NCBI GenBank assembly: GCA_944389075.1
Contig: CALXLA010000054.1
Location: 1 to 51,821 of the forward strand
Length of the DNA stretch: 51,821 nucleotides
Direction: 5' to 3'
From: an uncultured Spirochaetaceae bacterium
GTDB lineage: Bacteria; Spirochaetota; Spirochaetia; Sphaerochaetales; Sphaerochaetaceae
Shown here: positions 43,373 through 51,821 of the stretch, piece after piece
Layout of the letters: each line of letters starts with the position of its first letter
Numbering within the stretch: the first letter of the stretch is position 1
The notes under the pieces: generated by a model
Databases searched by the model: none
Told to the model about the DNA's origin: nothing
Seen by the model: the letters and a program-made list of their open reading frames with translations, nothing else
Translations under genes and position numbers: made by a program

Positions 43373-44349
43373 TCGTAAAGTACTCCGACCTCATCGCCTG
43401 TTTCCGATGAATATGAGGTTATCTTGATATCACCGGAGACAGTATCGATGGAGAGAAGATAGAAGAAACCATCGCTTTCGAAATCAATTGCGCTTTCCTT
43501 TCTGTGGAATGCAGCAAGATTGACCTCTGTGGACTTATCATTGAATCTGTAAACGATGTTTCCTCTGTGATGGTGTCCTGTCAGCATCAGCTGGACATCA
43601 TTGTCGTACATCAGCTTCATCATATGATGGACTTCCCTCTGATCTGTCATTCCTGTAATCACGACAGACTGGTCAGATGTACGGCTTGTTGCCATGTTCT
43701 CATGAGCTATGACAATCTTATAGGGATTCTTATCTGCAGCCAGTGCCTCTTCAATCCAGTCAAGCTGCTTCCTTCCGAATATGCCAAGGCTGTTGTCCAT
43801 CTTGTATATTGACAAGTCCCCGAAGACATACTTCCCCATTCTCACAGTCTCTCGGCCATGACTGAATGCCCCATAGACTTTATCAAATGCCTCAGTAGTT
43901 TCCCCATGGAGCTCATGATTTCCTATGCATATGATATGGTTGCCATCAGCAAGATTGGCAATTTCCCTGTAGAACCTTATGGCCTCAGATCCTTCATACT
44001 GTCCATCATCAAGAAGGTCTCCAAGGTCTATCACAAATGGATACTCACCATCCTTGAGGAACTTCTTGAATGCATCCTCGAATATATGCACTCCATTTCC
44101 TGTCCTGTCAGCATGAACATCGGTTATGATTGGGATCTTTATAACAGCAGGAACATCAATATCACGTTCTTCAGGTACGACCACAAGACTGCCATCTGAA
44201 CCAAGTTCCCCTACTTGATGAGAGAGCTTTGCAAGATCTATAGGCACAAGGAAGGGATTCTCATCGAAATTGTCGATGTCATACATTGAGACGATGCGGC
44301 AGGACACAGTGGAAAGCAGGATAAGAATGACGATAACAAGTTTCTTCAT
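43369..44349 (-). CDS. Metallophosphoesterase lipoprotein
   Basis: 326 residues from ATG 44349, chosen because it gives a clean lipoprotein signal (KKLVIVILILLSTVSC, Cys 17) and has GGGGGA five bases upstream. The calcineurin-like motifs are TDVHADR (D-x-H), FVIDLGDLLDDGQ (GD), CIGNHELHG (GNHE), VIAHENMAT and LTGHHHRGNI (GHxH). It should be anchored outside the inner membrane. Substrate unknown, perhaps nucleotides or phosphodiesters. It overlaps the gene upstream by four bases. Confidence 0.9.
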   Translation of the reverse strand: MKKLVIVILILLSTVSCRIVSMYDIDNFDENPFLVPIDLAKLSHQVGELGSDGSLVVVPEERDIDVPAVIKIPIITDVHADRTGNGVHIFEDAFKKFLKDGEYPFVIDLGDLLDDGQYEGSEAIRFYREIANLADGNHIICIGNHELHGETTEAFDKVYGAFSHGRETVRMGKYVFGDLSIYKMDNSLGIFGRKQLDWIEEALAADKNPYKIVIAHENMATSRTSDQSVVITGMTDQREVHHMMKLMYDNDVQLMLTGHHHRGNIVYRFNDKSTEVNLAAFHRKESAIDFESDGFFYLLSIDTVSGDIKITSYSSETGDEVGVLYD

Positions 44350-45005
44350 ACAGTCCCCCTGTAGCGATATCCTGCCTTGACTCCCCATCCGGATATCACG
44401 AATGTATGACAGTCCATGATGTTATCAAGCTCAAAGAATCCATCTGCGAATATCATATGGTTTTCATTTATCGTGAACTCTGCTGTGATGCCTGTAGTCG
44501 CTGAAAGCCTGAACTCCATCGCATCAGGATGCACCATTGTCTCATAGATCATGACACATACAGATCCTGTCTCGAAACCGATTCTGAGATCTATAAGAGG
44601 AATGCATGAGAAGAATGGATGGGAATATGGCGAATATGATATGCCTCCCTGAATGCCGATTCCATAGCCTAATCTGAACCAGTCCCATGCAAACTGCTGA
44701 GAGAAAAGATAACCTATCGTTGCGAAGCCGCCTTCGCCTGGAACGTTGTCTGTATGGAATATGAAATTATTATGAATCGTATCTCCGACTTTCAGGTCAT
44801 ATGATGATACGAATGAGAAATCATCATCGCCTATCCCGCTGAAATGAAGCGAGACATCCTCTGAAGTCGCATCAAAACCATAGTAGAACAGATCAGGCGC
44901 AGTAGTGCGGTATCTGGCACCAAATGACCATCCGGCGCTCCATGATACTGCGAACAGCATTCCTGGAATAAGAATACAAGCAAACAGCGAGACTATCCTT
45001 TTCAA
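44346..45005 (-). CDS. Secreted beta-barrel-like protein, unrecognised
   Basis: 219 residues with a signal peptide (MKRIVSLFACILIPGMLFAV). The mature protein is rich in Gly, Phe, Tyr and Trp with alternating strands (SWSAGWSFGARYRTTAPDLF, FATIGYLFSQQFAWDWFRLG) and ends WGVKAGYRYRGTV, as in outer-membrane proteins. It overlaps the lipoprotein phosphoesterase (TGA within ATG region), so both are made together and both go to the envelope. Family not recognised. Confidence 0.65.
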   Translation of the reverse strand: MKRIVSLFACILIPGMLFAVSWSAGWSFGARYRTTAPDLFYYGFDATSEDVSLHFSGIGDDDFSFVSSYDLKVGDTIHNNFIFHTDNVPGEGGFATIGYLFSQQFAWDWFRLGYGIGIQGGISYSPYSHPFFSCIPLIDLRIGFETGSVCVMIYETMVHPDAMEFRLSATTGITAEFTINENHMIFADGFFELDNIMDCHTFVISGWGVKAGYRYRGTV

Positions 45006-45074
45006 AGCAGAACCCTCTCAGTCATTATAGCCTTTTGCCTGCCATTCAGCATATATGCGCTATACTTAACATGA

Positions 45075-45902
45075 ATGCATATACTGATCTATCTGATTAT
45101 TACATTCGCAATACCATGGGCTATCTGGCTGATGGCTGCAGATATGTACGGCTCTATTGCCTATACAATCATCTCGTCAATTATCATGTGGATACCTGCA
45201 GCTGCAGCAGGCATCGTTCATCTGATATACCACACAAAAGCGAATCATTACTCATGGAGACCGCTTATCAGGAAGAACTGGAAAGCCTACCTCATAGCAT
45301 GGTTCTCCCCGATTCCCGTAACATTCATAGGCTGTATTGCCTATTTCCTGATACTCAGGGATGCATTCACATTATCAAATCTTGAAAGCACATCAATGCC
45401 GTTATATCTGTTCCTTCTACTGACAATAGCCTCAGTCATCCCTGCAGGTATCTTCAACATGTTCTTCGCACTCGGAGAGGAAACAGGATGGCGAGGTTTT
45501 CTGTATCCAGAGCTCAAGGCCAGATATGGAAGAACAAAGGCATACATCATGACAGGAATCATATGGGGACTTTGGCACACTCTGGTAAATGCCAGGGGCT
45601 ACAACTATGGAACTGGCTATCCAGGTTTCCCATTCATAGGGATAATCGCAATGTGTCTTTCATGCATAGTCCTGGGAACAATATCCTCATACCTTGCAGA
45701 TAAGACAGGATCGATATGGCCTTCCGCCCTGTTCCATGGTTCTGTAAATGCCATAGGAGCCTTAGGTCTGATCTTCATCTTTCCGGATTCATCCCATCTC
45801 TTAGGACCGGGAATCACAGGAATCATCCCAGCTATCATCACAGGATTGCTTATGATACCATTCCTGTCGAAGTCAAATGAACAATCCGGAAAAACCGGAT
45901 AG
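45075..45902 (+). CDS. CPBP-family intramembrane metalloprotease
   Basis: 275 residues, about eight helices. The CPBP (Abi) motifs are ALGEETGWRGFLYPEL (EExxxR), IWGLWHTLVN (FxxxH-like His) and SALFHGSVNA (HxxxN). Such proteins are Rce1-like proteases; in bacteria some protect against the cell's own bacteriocins. TATACT at 45061-45066 lies nine bases before the ATG and no ribosome site is seen, so it may be leaderless. A double hairpin follows. No bacteriocin gene is nearby. Confidence 0.88.
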   Translation: MHILIYLIITFAIPWAIWLMAADMYGSIAYTIISSIIMWIPAAAAGIVHLIYHTKANHYSWRPLIRKNWKAYLIAWFSPIPVTFIGCIAYFLILRDAFTLSNLESTSMPLYLFLLLTIASVIPAGIFNMFFALGEETGWRGFLYPELKARYGRTKAYIMTGIIWGLWHTLVNARGYNYGTGYPGFPFIGIIAMCLSCIVLGTISSYLADKTGSIWPSALFHGSVNAIGALGLIFIFPDSSHLLGPGITGIIPAIITGLLMIPFLSKSNEQSGKTG

Positions 45903-45917
45903 TTGACACTTCAATAC

Positions 45918-45946
45918 CCAACTATTCGGGAATTCCGAATAGTTGG
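45918..45946. terminator. Perfect 12-pair hairpin between CPBP and RhuM genes
   Basis: CCAACTATTCGG and CCGAATAGTTGG flank GAATT. TGCTTTTC follows on the plus strand. A third segment, CCGGATAGTTG just upstream (about 45895-45905), could pair with the first arm instead, and TCCGG-AAAAA-CCGGA is a further small hairpin. Confidence 0.65.
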
Positions 45947-45966
45947 ATGCTTTTCAATTGATTGTG

Positions 45967-46989
45967 TTATTTTGCATTATTCTGCAATAGTTTTCTGACT
46001 TCTTTATCAAAATCAGAATCGATTTTCTGAGCAGGATTGAAGATGTCGTATTCCGCTTCGGCCTTCGCTTTTGCCTGTGCTGAAGAAACTGAACCTTTGT
46101 CTTTCAGTATGCTGAACTTCCGGAAAGAAAGGAAATCATCCACGCTTTGGGCGAATTCAGCCATGGTGAAAGTGTTTTCGTTCATCACCAGATCCTCGAC
46201 ATAGTCGAAGAACATGGAGACATTCCGCTCAAGCCGTCTGATCTGGTTCTCATCAAGATAGTTCTTGGCGATTGACACATCAGACTTGAGAATCCTGCCG
46301 TCTGGAGAATTCTTCCAGGTTGTCAGCCCCATATGGTCTTTGGTGTGGTCAGCTCTGTGGTATACAATCTCAGCCGCAGTCTCTCCAGTGATGGCATAAT
46401 GAAACTTATTCTGCACCATTGCATAGAAGTCTTTCGTAATCTGGGAATCCTTATCATAATCAATACTGCACTCGGCGAAGATATCTGTAATCTGCTGCCA
46501 GATTCTTCTCTCGCTTGCCCGGATTGACCTGATGCGTTCAAGGAGTTCCCTGAAATAATCTTTGCCGAAGAGCGTTTTCCCTTGCTTCAGGCGTTCATCG
46601 TCCAAGGCAAATCCTTTTGTCATGTATTCTTTGAGGACACCTGTTGCCCAGATACGGAAATGTGTAGCCCGGCGAGAATTGACTCTATAACCAACAGAGA
46701 TGATAGCATCCAGATTATAGAACCTTGTATCATGAGTCTGTGTCAGCCCCTCAATTGCACCATGCTCAGTGGTATGTGCAAATTTTGCACTAACCACTTT
46801 TTCATCTAGCTCACCTTCTTCAAAGATGTTTTTTAGATGTCTGGAAATCGAAGTTCTATCAACATCAAAAAGCTCTGCCATAGCCTTCTGCGTAAGCCAT
46901 ATTGTCTCATCATGAACAATGGCATTAACCGATACATTCTCATCCACGCTGTTATAAATCAGAAAATCAAATCTATCTTTATCAGTCAT
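45967..46989 (-). CDS. RhuM-family protein (virulence RhuM-like)
   Basis: 340 residues. The N-terminal winged-helix-like part reads IVHDETIWLTQKAMAELFDV then DRTSISRHLKNIFEEGELDE, followed by the RhuM core YNLDAIISVGYRVNSRRATH and FRIWATGVLKEYMTKGFALD. The name comes from a Salmonella pathogenicity-island gene; the biochemical role is unknown, and relatives are common in defence or mobile islands. The C-terminal part has a Fic/Doc-like neighbour segment but I do not see an HPFxxGN motif. It lies between a terminator and the CRISPR array. Confidence 0.88.
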   Translation of the reverse strand: MTDKDRFDFLIYNSVDENVSVNAIVHDETIWLTQKAMAELFDVDRTSISRHLKNIFEEGELDEKVVSAKFAHTTEHGAIEGLTQTHDTRFYNLDAIISVGYRVNSRRATHFRIWATGVLKEYMTKGFALDDERLKQGKTLFGKDYFRELLERIRSIRASERRIWQQITDIFAECSIDYDKDSQITKDFYAMVQNKFHYAITGETAAEIVYHRADHTKDHMGLTTWKNSPDGRILKSDVSIAKNYLDENQIRRLERNVSMFFDYVEDLVMNENTFTMAEFAQSVDDFLSFRKFSILKDKGSVSSAQAKAKAEAEYDIFNPAQKIDSDFDKEVRKLLQNNAK

Positions 46990-47169
46990 ATCTACCCCTT
47001 TAACTCTACAATGATTCTGTCTATCCCCTAGTATCTATCTCTCATAGTTCAGCATAGGATTTCATTATACAATCAATGTCTTCTTTCGAAACTCACATAC
47101 CCAAATGAAATAATTCTGATAATTCATTTATCTGAAGCTATACATATAGTGAACTATCCTAAATTCTCA
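46990..47169. other. 180-base gap between RhuM start and the distal CRISPR end
   Basis: AT-rich, with no ORF. It must hold the RhuM promoter (minus strand). I searched it for a segment complementary to the CRISPR repeat that could be a tracrRNA and found none apart from the degenerate last repeat itself. Confidence 0.4.
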
Positions 47170-49054
47170 AATTCTGAATGTAAACAGATAACACAACTCC
47201 CAAGCGGAGGAATCTGCAGAGACGCATCAGCCGCCGCTTGAGTGTATTCAAAGATAACACAACTCCCAAGCTGATTTCCTCTTGCACATCAAGTAGTGCA
47301 AGCTTGAGTGTATTCAAAGATAACACAACTCCCAAGCTGGCAAAGATCGTTGCACACTAAAGCCAATGCTTGAGTGTATTCAAAGATAACACAACTCCCA
47401 AGCTTCAGCTGTGGAACGCCTAGGACGTACAGTGCTTGAGTGTATTCAAAGATAACACAACTCCCAAGCCCTTAAAGGTTTTTATTCGCCGCTTGCTCGG
47501 CTTGAGTGTATTCAAAGATAACACAACTCCCAAGCCGAGGGAACAGTTTGAATACAACAAATCTCGCTTGAGTGTATTCAAAGATAACACAACTCCCAAG
47601 CAAGGCGTTGGCCGTCTTTATGGTCATTATAGCTTGAGTGTATTCAAAGATAACACAACTCCCAAGCCCCGTGAACAGTTTGAATACAATAAAGATCGCT
47701 TGAGTGTATTCAAAGATAACACAACTCCCAAGCTTGACCCATCGGAGGAAAAGGACGCTTTAGGCTTGAGTGTATTCAAAGATAACACAACTCCCAAGCT
47801 ATCACTATAGCCAAGTGACACCACCCGGTAGCTTGAGTGTATTCAAAGATAACACAACTCCCAAGCTAGACTAGGTTTTATAGGCTAGAAAATTCTGCTT
47901 GAGTGTATTCAAAGATAACACAACTCCCAAGCAAGCGTAAAAGTACCATCAGCACGGAGATTGCTTGAGTGTATTCAAAGATAACACAACTCCCAAGCAA
48001 TTTGCTCATCAGTTGAGAGTGCACACCAGCTTGAGTGTATTCAAAGATAACACAACTCCCAAGCCATGTGGCGAATATGGTGATAGATTTCATCGCTTGA
48101 GTGTATTCAAAGATAACACAACTCCCAAGCCGTGAAACTAAATTCGATTCAAGATTTTTTGCTTGAGTGTATTCAAAGATAACACAACTCCCAAGCAGGG
48201 AAACTGCCTTGAATATTCATTTCCTGGCTTGAGTGTATTCAAAGATAACACAACTCCCAAGCTCTGAGAAAGTTATGCGATGATAGGTATCGGCTTGAGT
48301 GTATTCAAAGATAACACAACTCCCAAGCATATACAACCTCCAATTGGCTGACTCTGATGCTTGAGTGTATTCAAAGATAACACAACTCCCAAGCTGTCGT
48401 ATAAATAGACAGTCTGAATTATGTGCTTGAGTGTATTCAAAGATAACACAACTCCCAAGCCTTTCGCCTGACGATTACTATATGCCTGAAGCTTGAGTGT
48501 ATTCAAAGATAACACAACTCCCAAGCTTCTCCAAATAATGGTCAAGGTATTGGATTGCTTGAGTGTATTCAAAGATAACACAACTCCCAAGCGGTTTCAT
48601 CTTCATATTGGCCGTAAATACTGCTTGAGTGTATTCAAAGATAGCACAACTCCCAAGCATGAAATAAGGCTTAACGGATTCTTTTATCGCTTGAGTGTAT
48701 TCAAAGATAACACAACTCCCAAGCTCTATCAATAGCTGCTTTTCTGGAAGAATCGCTTGAGTGTATTCAAAGATAACACAACTCCCAAGCACAGATAATG
48801 AGCCAGATATGCTCAAGGTTGCTTGAGTGTATTCAAAGATAACACAACTCCCAAGCGGTCTTTCTGGTATTCTCGGTCTTTTCTTGGCTTGAGTGTATTC
48901 AAAGATAACACAACTCCCAAGCGTGTCAATCTTTCTCTCGGCATGTTTGGTAGCTTGAGTGTATTCAAAGATAACACAACTCCCAAGCCTTCTCCTTTAC
49001 GGTCTTTTGGTATTCAGAGCTTGAGTGTATTCAAAGATAACACAACTCCCAAGC
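47170..49054 (-). CRISPR. Type II-A CRISPR array, 29 repeats and 28 spacers
   Basis: 36-base repeats whose plus-strand form begins GCTTGAGTGTATTC and ends CTCCCAAGC, so the ends GCTTG/CAAGC pair. The transcribed strand is minus (begins GCTTGGGAGTTGTGT), like the cas genes. Twenty-seven spacers are 30 bases and one (47800-47830) is 31. The repeat at 47170-47205 is degenerate in its outer half, which marks the old, leader-distal end. The repeat at 48623-48658 has one A-to-G change. All others are identical. Spacers at 47536-47565 and 47668-47697 are 24/30 identical to each other. Confidence 0.98.
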
Positions 49055-49183
49055 CTCAAACAATAGGATACTTATAAACATATTTAGAACCATCAAATTC
49101 AAATATACAGGATAAACATATACATTATAAATAATAAATTAGAGATGCAATGTAAGCGATATATTCAATGTGAAAAGTATAAA
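49055..49183 (-). promoter_or_regulatory. CRISPR leader with promoter and leader-anchoring sequence
   Basis: 129 AT-rich bases between csn2 and the first repeat. On the minus strand TTGCAT, 15 bases, then TATAAT (49129-49124) may be the array promoter. The last leader bases before the repeat are GTTTGAG, one base different from the ATTTGAG anchoring sequence that directs spacer insertion in streptococcal type II-A systems. Confidence 0.65.
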
Positions 49184-49864
49184 TCAATAAATTACAGCAC
49201 CATCGCTATCAACAACAATCTTATCAATTCCATTCGGGATCTTCTGATATGAAGAAGCTGAATTACCCTCGATGAATAATATCGAATGCCCATGTCTTGA
49301 TGAATCATCAACAATCATTCCTATTTCATCATAGTTATAAGCAGAAAATCCATTAAGTATTACAAATATCCCCACTCCGCAAATATCATGAAAGACATTC
49401 ATATACTCAAGAATCTGTTCCCTATCATCCTGATAATCATATTCCGGCTGCAATCCCAATAATTTAAGCAATGATGCACTATCAATAGGACTTGGACGCA
49501 TCTGATACTGAAATGAGGAAGCTATTTCCTCTGCATACATCTCAATAGCGCTTATCATATCCTGCGTTTTCTGGAACATATCCTCGGATACATATGCTTT
49601 CAGCATTGTCTGAAGCTTTGACAGAATCCGCTTATCATCAAGATGTATATTGAACAAATCAGCAATGATATTCATATTGCTAGCTATTGATAATTCATTA
49701 TTATCTTCAGACAGTATGAAATCCCCATCATTGCCTTCATGTTGGCTTATAAGCTCTGCTACATAATGGCGATACTCATCTGCCCTATCGAAAAACAGCG
49801 CTGTTGCATTACCATCTGAAAGATCAATCTGAAAATCATAGTCAGGATGAATAAGTTTTTTCAT
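49184..49864 (-). CDS. csn2: CRISPR adaptation protein Csn2
   Basis: 226 residues, the usual Csn2 size. Csn2 forms a ring on DNA ends and helps Cas1-Cas2 with spacer capture in type II-A. FQIDLSDGNATALFFDRADE at the N-terminus, SLLKLLGLQPEYDYQDDREQ in the middle and GVGIFVILNGFSAYNYDEIG fit the family. The presence of this gene is what makes the locus II-A. ATG overlaps the cas2 stop (ATGA). It is last before the leader. Similarity to well-studied Csn2 proteins is low, as is normal in the family. Confidence 0.85.
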   Translation of the reverse strand: MKKLIHPDYDFQIDLSDGNATALFFDRADEYRHYVAELISQHEGNDGDFILSEDNNELSIASNMNIIADLFNIHLDDKRILSKLQTMLKAYVSEDMFQKTQDMISAIEMYAEEIASSFQYQMRPSPIDSASLLKLLGLQPEYDYQDDREQILEYMNVFHDICGVGIFVILNGFSAYNYDEIGMIVDDSSRHGHSILFIEGNSASSYQKIPNGIDKIVVDSDGAVIY

Positions 49865-50166
49865 AAGACAACAAGCCTATCCGTTGTAGTTACATATTCA
49901 GAAGCGAATTTGCCGGTTATGTATTTCATCGAAGCATATTGCTTCTCAGTTACTGTAAGGAGCTGGACAAGTCCTTTCTTCGGTGCATTTACACGAATCA
50001 ATTCCTCAACAGAATCAGACATTGATGCATTGAGGCATAACTTTGTATATATTGATTCCTGTTGCATGACAAATCCTGTCTTTATCAGGAATTTTCTGAA
50101 TTTCCTGTATTCCCTTCTGTCGGATAAAGTCACCACAGGCAAATCAAACATAACCATCATGCGCAT
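49861..50166 (-). CDS. cas2: CRISPR-associated endoribonuclease/integration factor Cas2
   Basis: 101 residues from ATG 50166 (MRMMVMFDLPV), with GAGG nine bases upstream; an ATG at 50181 inside the end of cas1 would add five residues. The ferredoxin-like fold begins with the hallmark MVMFDLPV (Asp 8), followed by REYRKFRKFLIKTGFVMQQE. Cas2 bridges two Cas1 dimers to form the integrase. It overlaps cas1 or abuts it depending on the start, and overlaps csn2 by four bases. Confidence 0.93.
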   Translation of the reverse strand: MRMMVMFDLPVVTLSDRREYRKFRKFLIKTGFVMQQESIYTKLCLNASMSDSVEELIRVNAPKKGLVQLLTVTEKQYASMKYITGKFASEYVTTTDRLVVL

Positions 50167-50170
50167 AAAC

Positions 50171-51055
50171 CTATTCCTCATATTGCCACTGAACCATCTT
50201 TGAAGGATCTGATGAATCAAGTGCATTCAAAATACCGCATACATAGATATCAATTGCATTTATGATTGTCTCAGATCTGCCTCTTATCATTATGCGGTCA
50301 TTAAGCAGATTCACTATTCTATGCTTTGATTCGGAGGTTAATTCCTCCTCGATAGGAAGCGATAATACCTTCTCATCAACAAGCGGCCTGAATGGTTCCA
50401 TTATATCGGAACTCAAATTGAAAGGATTGAAAGTATTATGGTGGAAAATGCCGATCTGTGTTGAATATCCATGGGCCACAACAGATCGATTGACTGCAGA
50501 AAGAATGACAGAATACCCATAATTCAGAGCATCATTGAAAAAAGATGGTTCTCTTCTTGAGAAAGGGCTGCCAAACAATGCATTGAAATAAACCTTTGCG
50601 GCATGCCCTTCTCTGTTAGTAACATCACAGGATTCAATTTCTGAAGCATAATCAAGCAATTTCATCCATACATCTGAATCAACATCATGCTTTTTCAGCA
50701 TCAAAGCCTGTTTGCTTATTTTATCTCTGACTATCTCTGTCCAGACAGCTTCCTTAGCACATTCATCCCAGCATGTCTGGACATATATCCTTGCACTTGA
50801 TTCATAACTTGCCTGAAAAGGAATAATCTGAGCACCGGGATTATGGTGACTATCGCATAATATCACTGCAATCTTCCGTTCCCATAAAGCCTCAAGCAAT
50901 GCGGCAGACATCACACACCCGGTATTCTCAACAAGGAGCACTGAGATATCGTCAAGGAGAATGCGCTTTGTCTCATCAACACCTCTCACGACAAGATATC
51001 CCAGCTTCAGCTCCAGTTTCGATCTTGAGCTGACGACTACCACACGCCAACTCAT
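50171..51055 (-). CDS. cas1: CRISPR-associated integrase Cas1
   Basis: 294 residues. Cas1 cuts and joins new spacers at the leader-proximal repeat. Metal ligands are E149 (NREGHAAK), H205 or H206 (GIFHHN) and E220 (SSDIMEPFRP). The N-terminal beta part has LLVENTGCVMSAALLEALWE, the dimerisation region. The size is typical of type II Cas1. The ATG overlaps the cas9 stop. Gene order cas9-cas1-cas2-csn2-array on one strand is the standard II-A order. Confidence 0.97.
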   Translation of the reverse strand: MSWRVVVVSSRSKLELKLGYLVVRGVDETKRILLDDISVLLVENTGCVMSAALLEALWERKIAVILCDSHHNPGAQIIPFQASYESSARIYVQTCWDECAKEAVWTEIVRDKISKQALMLKKHDVDSDVWMKLLDYASEIESCDVTNREGHAAKVYFNALFGSPFSRREPSFFNDALNYGYSVILSAVNRSVVAHGYSTQIGIFHHNTFNPFNLSSDIMEPFRPLVDEKVLSLPIEEELTSESKHRIVNLLNDRIMIRGRSETIINAIDIYVCGILNALDSSDPSKMVQWQYEE

Positions 51056-51821
51056 ATATCTATTTTTTCCTTCTTACTAAACAATCCGGTAACACTGTGG
51101 TTGTAGATAATCAGGGAATCACCGGATTTCAAAGCCGAAGAGAAAAGTGGCAATCCACTATTTGCACTACCTTTAATAAGTGTCAAATCAGCCTTGCCTG
51201 AATCCATTCCAAAGTAAAGAAGCATATTATGAAGCAATGTACACTGATCCTCGGTCGATAGTTCTATAAATAAATCTCGTCCTTTCTTGAATAATTCTGC
51301 CTGTGATGATGGTCTTCCGCTATAGATAGGTTTGAAAGCCTTGTCCGTAAGGATGTCATACAGCTCTATGTTTCTCTCCTTTGAAATTTCATCATGTTTC
51401 TCATCTACAACAATGGTTTTATCAATTCTTCGTCGTTCAACAAATTTCTCAACTTTCTTCAGTGAATTTGCAACAACATCATCAAGCAGAAGAGGAATTG
51501 CTGATTTTATTATAACTTGACGTCCAGTCTTACCAGCTATTGAACATTTAAATCGATTGATAGACATCATAGTTCCCAACAAAATACGTCCTTTGATAAT
51601 CTCTGGTTCAACAAGCCCAAATTTATTCATGCATAGCTTCAGTAGATCTTCCTTATTCTTTATTCCAAAGGAATCAATAATTGTAATAGGAACGAATGTT
51701 ACGACATGCTTCTTTTTCTTCATGTGACGAACAAGGGCGAAATATGCAATCTTAAGGCTATTGTAGCCACCATACTTTGAAGTCCATTCCGCATAGACAG
51801 CTTCAGGATTATCGCTGTTGG
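51052..51821 (-). CDS. cas9: CRISPR nuclease Cas9, C-terminal part (cut by window edge)
   Basis: About 256 residues are visible; the frame is open to the right edge, so the reading from the Met at 51723 is not the true start. The edge sequence EAVYAEWTSKYGGYNSLKIA leads into the C-terminal PAM-interacting domain: the KYGG(Y/F) block, VVTFVPITIIDSFG, INRFKCSIAGKTGRQVIIKS and AELFKKGRDLFIELSTEDQC are in the order seen in II-A Cas9 proteins. RuvC, HNH and most of the recognition lobe lie outside the window, as must the tracrRNA if it is upstream of cas9. Confidence 0.92.
   Translation of the reverse strand, partial: NSDNPEAVYAEWTSKYGGYNSLKIAYFALVRHMKKKKHVVTFVPITIIDSFGIKNKEDLLKLCMNKFGLVEPEIIKGRILLGTMMSINRFKCSIAGKTGRQVIIKSAIPLLLDDVVANSLKKVEKFVERRRIDKTIVVDEKHDEISKERNIELYDILTDKAFKPIYSGRPSSQAELFKKGRDLFIELSTEDQCTLLHNMLLYFGMDSGKADLTLIKGSANSGLPLFSSALKSGDSLIIYNHSVTGLFSKKEKIDI

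Follow-up and report, generated by a model that had tools for sequence, protein, structure and literature searches.

Why should a CRISPR array hold two nearly identical spacers with a single spacer between them? The question arises from an array in the 51,821-nt contig analyzed here (the window), assigned to an uncultured Spirochaetaceae bacterium. A sequence-only reading had interpreted the pair, hereafter siblings, as two separate captures of the same gene from related phages, or as a counter-response to phage escape. The array is part of a type II-A CRISPR-Cas locus on the minus strand, in the order cas9 C-terminal part, cas1, cas2, csn2, a 129-base stretch and the array:

47170..49054, minus strand: CRISPR array, 29 repeats of 36 nt and 28 spacers
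49055..49183, minus strand: presumed leader between the array and csn2, named from its position only
49184..49864, minus strand: csn2 (PF09711; PADLOC Csn2)
49861..50226, minus strand: cas2
50171..51055, minus strand: cas1 (type II)
51052..51821, minus strand: cas9, C-terminal part (PF16595 on 223 aa of 51052-51723), cut by the contig end at 51821

Type II-A assignment follows from csn2, cas1 and cas2 adjoining the array. Gene order, presence of csn2, 36-nt repeats, 30-nt spacers and placement of the array beyond csn2 are all as in known type II-A arrays (cas9-cas1-cas2-csn2), from which we saw no difference; here cas9 is represented on the contig by its PAM-interacting C-terminal part alone. 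Spacers are 30 nt long in 27 of 28 cases and 31 nt in one. Twenty-seven repeats are identical, one at 48623 carries a single mismatch, and the repeat at 47170-47205 is degenerate with 10 mismatches. Based on this degenerate repeat and gene order, the old end of the array was placed at low coordinates; the strand of array transcription was likewise deduced from gene order. An Rfam scan of 44000-51821 at gathering thresholds gave no match, and no tracrRNA was seen on a contig that stops inside cas9. At up to 3 mismatches, the repeat is absent elsewhere in the host assembly and from the other 47 congeners. Arrays with repeats related to the host repeat occur in two congeners (L326/L327 of G035 and L325 of G011). 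Also recorded were a RhuM-family gene beside the old end of the array (window 45967-46989; PADLOC candidate PDC-S05) and the tmRNA tag, AKKEDEFVSDEAFALAA, which was not recognized. No 16S gene was found.

The siblings and the spacer that separates them lie near the presumed old end:

47536..47565, minus strand: sibling spacer 1, sixth from the presumed old end; plus strand codes R-E-Q-F-E-Y-N-K-S, guide antisense
47602..47631, minus strand: the single spacer between the siblings, unrelated to them; no source found
47668..47697, minus strand: sibling spacer 2, eighth from the presumed old end; plus strand codes R-E-Q-F-E-Y-N-K-D

Without any shift, the siblings are equal at 24 of 30 bases and have the stretch GAACAGTTTGAATACAA in common. 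Among 2000 shuffled spacer sets, the best same-register, same-strand pair (351 equal-length pairs) had 19 matches at most, which makes chance similarity of the siblings vanishingly improbable. Frame +2 holds five base differences in nine codons and one residue difference (REQFEYNKS versus REQFEYNKD); the differences include an AGG/CGT arginine switch, a synonymous asparagine change and a two-base Ser/Asp change. The other five frames show 2 to 4 residue differences, and one of them contains stops. Thus, the similarity, its exact coordinates, the lone intervening spacer and the shared peptide with synonymous Arg and Asn changes before Ser or Asp all stand as the sequence-only reading had described them.

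Duplication of a spacer-repeat unit within the array, followed by mutation, would also place two related spacers one spacer apart. The spacer between them is unrelated, however, 27 of the 28 non-terminal repeats are identical, and the differences between siblings are coding-biased. When six random substitutions were simulated, one residue change or none resulted in frame +2 in 0.3-0.4% of trials (144 of 40,000 with spacer 1 as the start, 109 of 40,000 with spacer 2); allowing the best open frame, the counts were 1659 and 1533 of 40,000 (about 4%). By itself the coding reading of the siblings is good but not overwhelming. Because random substitution so seldom spares the peptide, homologous coding sequences are favored over in-array duplication and drift, and we consider duplication very unlikely. 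As a separate observation, both siblings (47547-47556 and 47679-47688) contain the 10 bases TTTGAATACA, which are also present on the repeat's opposite strand, and 9 of 4000 shuffled spacers had at least 10 bases in common with that strand. Folding pairs guide with repeat in both siblings, with a stability little above that of shuffles, of which 15 of 200 and 35 of 200, respectively, fold as well.

Searches of phage and metagenome databases with both spacers and their peptide had been proposed as the direct check. Among IMG/VR, phage and plasmid records, family genomes and GTDB contigs, the searches made returned no protospacer for either sibling, and none turned up in unrelated non-coding loci. 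A self origin was rejected: within the host assembly, the core GAACAGTTTGAATACAAYAAA is confined to the array, and, among 48 genomes counting the host, no congener carries the search pattern even with 3 mismatches allowed. Codons for EQFEYNK were found once among 139 family genomes, in the host's own array. Codons for REQFEYNK gave two matches in GTDB contigs, titled Arenicellales and Euryarchaeota MAGs, with about two expected by chance by our estimate. As one query against phages, the two siblings matched 167 records; the best 40 of 167 were at E 8, 38 of these 40 were enterobacterial phages, and the matches listed were mostly annotated as dCMP hydroxymethylase or thymidylate synthase. No sibling match to phage records, among those listed, was better than E 2. 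The whole array gave two matches at E 6 among plasmid records.

IMG/VR contains EQFEYNK codons in 8 contigs, with 6 to 14 mismatches to either spacer, and 17 exact matches to the 17-mer core, each with at least 6 mismatches to either spacer. No contig had EQFEYNK followed by a GLNP-like codon string. FEY...AGxNP was found in 73 contigs, with FEY and AGxNP in frame in 20 (some across stops), and no pilot protein was recognized among them. Such matches raise the alternative that one homologous gene was captured twice, with tailed phages, or other phages encoding a REQFEYNK protein, as the source. None of the 8 contigs with exact EQFEYNK reads as VP2. In three of them (L015-L017, 6-9 mismatches to the spacers) the peptide is GEQFEYNKG of a 414-aa protein, which we take to be minor head-like, and this or another coil protein could be the source; the others are L011, L012, L013, L014 and L018. 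L015 is 6 of 30 bases off spacer 2, as few as separate the siblings, and L033 (KEQFEYNM) is 6 bases off spacer 1. In addition, 47536 has gapped 86-88% matches (E 2-8) to a ligase gene in four Salmonella phage records and one Klebsiella phage record. Against this, the IMG/VR contigs were selected for the core, their number is near a chance estimate of about 3, and they match poorly outside the core. L015-L017 also have Asp-Gly before EQF, as is typical of the minor head-like family, whereas the siblings have Arg after a codon ending in CG or CC. Considering also that the array matches microviruses elsewhere, we view a source in tailed or other phages as possible but unlikely.

Beyond the siblings, two spacers point to microviruses and a third does so more weakly:

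47800..47830, minus strand: shares 25 of 31 bases with microvirus PQ006413, 21 of them contiguous
48065..48094, minus strand: plus strand codes CGEYGDRFH, a conserved motif of VP4, the replication initiator of microviruses; MG945798 and MT135350 each share 26 of 30 bases
48395..48424, minus strand: reads CRINRQSELC, resembling more weakly the VP4 consensus CRINRAREWA; 14.5 bits, shuffle p 0.010

The phage records searched numbered 50,697, with at least 3,948 microviruses making up an estimated 0.8% or so of bases. As one query, the whole array matched 17 of these records, of which 6 were microviruses, matched through three array places (E 0.5 to 7). Spacer 48065 alone matched 137 records: at least 60 were microviruses by name and held the best E-values among the matches listed (0.01), and 47 were Pseudomonas phages, at E 2 among the matches listed. 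IMG/VR contained no CGEYGDRFH codons and no close relative of the L070 VP4. A nucleotide comparison of the 28 spacers with 160 microvirus contigs put 48065 (26/30) and 47800 (25/30), and no others, above the shuffles tried. We also scanned the 28 spacers, in all frames, with MCP, VP4 and VP2 profiles built from 172 microvirus genomes or contigs, 7 of which (L238-L244) entered via a non-natural query. The top score belonged to 48065 (VP4, 27.1 bits, reached by 0 of 1680 shuffles). Judging by these matches, the array appears to target microviruses elsewhere, through 48065 in VP4 and through 47800.

In the same three-family scan, 47668 scored 13.2 bits on VP2 (p 0.031), 47536 12.6 (p 0.046) and 48857 12.1 (p 0.064), these p values being per spacer and uncorrected, and both siblings were placed on VP2 column 30 in frame +2. 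Thirty-six control spacers from two congeners (26 and 10) gave a best score of 12.6, equalled by 45 of 1080 shuffles. Because this control score is the same as that of 47536, the scan distinguishes 48065, and 48395 less clearly, but not the siblings. Other candidate microviral spacers were considered and dropped. Spacer 48461, as a capsid spacer, reached 12.6 bits (shuffle p 0.046). Frame +2 of 48593-48622 (FHLHIGRKY) resembles IHWHMGRKF of a microvirus ORF in L146 and was unsupported in the three-family scan. The newest spacer, 48989-49018, codes SEYQKTVKEK on the minus strand and has 21 of 30 bases in the L324 VP2; it was unsupported in either profile scan, scoring in another frame on the 35-row VP2 profile described below.

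The link between siblings and VP2 comes from a motif of the gokushovirus DNA pilot protein. In natural gokushovirus VP2s, a coil of the form [KR]E-x-x-x-Y-[QN]-K precedes RED-x-x-x-QRR by eight residues, as in KEQYEYQKQ (L320), KEMFEYQKG (L322), KEQFAYQKE (L190) and RETLDYQKS (L323), and REQFEYNK fits this coil. A pilot protein for DNA ejection was among the PHROGs matches of 4 of 4 natural VP2 proteins. At the nucleotide level, the site is in none of 14 aligned VP2s, where siblings and VP2s differ at 12 or more of 30 bases, so no exact or near-exact VP2 protospacer was among them, and exact EQFEYNK is in none of the VP2s seen.

The spacers were also scored on a 35-row VP2 profile with rows picked by the downstream anchor alone and not for resemblance to the siblings. 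The top three of the 28 spacers, on a common column, were 47668 (12.7; 4 of 4200 shuffles as high), 48857 (11.1; 9 of 4200) and 47536 (9.6; 29 of 4200), placing the siblings at ranks 1 and 3. Their best VP2 frame was +2, the frame also picked by the synonymous changes. Shuffled spacers thus match the VP2 coil motif less well than the sibling peptide does. Among 228,065 9-mers of other phage proteins, recounted without junctions, 73, 207 and 669 scored as high as the 47668, 48857 and 47536 peptides, respectively, and residue permutations reached the sibling scores in 26 of 5000 (47668) and 150 of 5000 (47536) trials. Basic, aromatic and lysine positions are all present in 11 of 30 RED-type rows. 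On a 14-row profile of the Y-x-K class the siblings scored about 22 bits, reached by no shuffle or phage 9-mer; this score is optimistic because an expression similar to the query was used to select the rows.

Two results temper the specificity of the 35-row profile. GEQFEYNKG of the 414-aa non-VP2 protein scored 10.8, and the profile therefore does not separate such proteins from VP2. Among congener spacers, one from G011 (QNQKKNQKY) scored 13.3, above the siblings, and the other 35 of 36 scored at most 6.6. This spacer, ACCAGAATCAGAAGAAGAATCAAAAATACG in L325 (G011:C2), may derive from a microvirus VP2 or may be a false positive. A BLOSUM62 peptide scan, in which the siblings did not stand out, was too noisy and was set aside.

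Collectively, shared register, coding-type differences and motif fit make VP2 a probable source of the siblings. Our preferred explanation, which we hold with some confidence, is that the two spacers were independently captured from a homologous 30-base VP2 site in two related gokushovirus-like microviruses. To this extent the evidence supports the earlier proposal that related phages each contributed one capture of the same gene; the phages themselves are inferred.

PAM-side flanks, whose comparison had also been proposed, could be compared for the siblings in homologues alone, where they tend to be A-rich across few independent sites. At the four VP4 matches of one spacer in four related phages, the flank is CAAAAT or CGAAAT; at the weaker 47800 match it is TCAAGT. 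The array repeats are presumably similar to those of the Treponema denticola Cas9 system. The flanks at the VP4 matches resemble NAAAAN, the PAM given for T. denticola Cas9 in a table of PMC5569134. At the homologous VP2 site, the full NAAAA form is on the PAM side in 1 of 14 rows. If VP2 is the source, the A-rich PAM may come from a Phe or Leu codon that lies upstream of the motif by two codons, and the site may have been chosen for this.

A self-targeting spacer was also encountered in the array. Spacer 48263-48292 matches L074 5495-5524 (G000:C25:23494-23523) at 30 of 30 bases, near the start of a host TraB/PrgY/gumN gene, with a flank (TGGCTC) that lacks an A-rich PAM. Congeners G020 and G022 match this spacer at 87%, and a HipA-like gene with an HTH partner is near the self-targeted gene (L074 2950-4920).

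If the siblings are independent VP2 captures, 47536 was presumably taken first, since it is nearer the degenerate end. Differences between the guides fall at PAM-proximal positions 2, 3 and 5 and at positions 23, 27 and 28. With PAM-proximal differences in a Cas9 seed, a first guide would not protect well against the second phage. The second capture was thus probably not redundant, and may have given immunity to a phage poorly cut by the first guide. The counter-response reading holds that one phage lineage mutated the site and was then recaptured by the host. Three differences in the PAM-proximal seed and the nearness of the siblings, one spacer apart, agree with this. Selected escape needs just a single change, however, and the pair has three more differences outside the seed and synonymous changes at arginine and asparagine. 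Six differences are more in keeping with homologues that have diverged than with escape in one step, and we think escape improbable.

Recapture of one site in related microviruses need not be surprising. Counting both strands, seven microvirus records contain 61 to 163 NAAAA sites, whereas NNAAA occurs 207 to 420 times. Assuming 6-8 microviral spacers, the expected number of same-site pairs is 0.10-0.46 with 61-150 sites and 0.04-0.07 with 400 sites. Given so few PAM sites per microvirus genome, a special mechanism is not required, and neither priming nor escape, though possible, has to be invoked. Type II-A primed acquisition as described in PMC10415147 likewise involves repeated acquisition against one phage group; there, additional phage sequences are acquired after Cas9 cleavage, whereas here the same site in a homologue would be acquired.

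The profile scans also brought up a spacer in which the VP2 coil may read from the other strand:

48857..48886, minus strand: possible third sibling, oppositely oriented, with RKDREYQKD coded on the minus strand; 18 of 30 bases in the register of 47668

By itself, 18 of 30 is near chance, as 52 of 2000 shuffled sets had a same-strand pair with at least 18. Across the 14 rows of the motif class, the PAM side proper to 48857 at the homologous VP2 site has NNAA in 2 of 14, versus 10 of 14 on the siblings' side. Because its own side is poor in NNAA, 48857 may be an inverted insertion. That it represents a third capture of the sibling site is a tentative proposal, to which we give slightly less than even weight. 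A bolder and rather improbable extension is that one VP2 codon window is a recurrent capture site, accounting for 47536, 47668 and an inverted 48857 among the 28 spacers and perhaps for the G011 spacer, with recurrence perhaps arising from weak guides. The 10-base pairing of guide with repeat could weaken the sibling guides, allowing phages to persist and the site to be captured again.

Twin spacers are ordinary, known CRISPR biology, and our literature search found no title on this sibling pair, which is not proof of absence. What the analysis adds is a suggested phage group and target gene for two spacers that lack a database match, obtained by comparing spacer peptides with family profiles. 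It also offers a simple null model in which, for a 4-5 kb genome, same-site recapture demands no special mechanism. Treponema is listed among predicted microvirus hosts in PMC11281440, and PMC9239249 discounts its Spirochaetes case because it consists of one contig in metagenome bins that are fragmented. Microvirus-directed spacers make the bacterium studied here a likely microvirus host. If that host is a spirochaete, the array would bear on the doubtful link between spirochaetes and microviruses.
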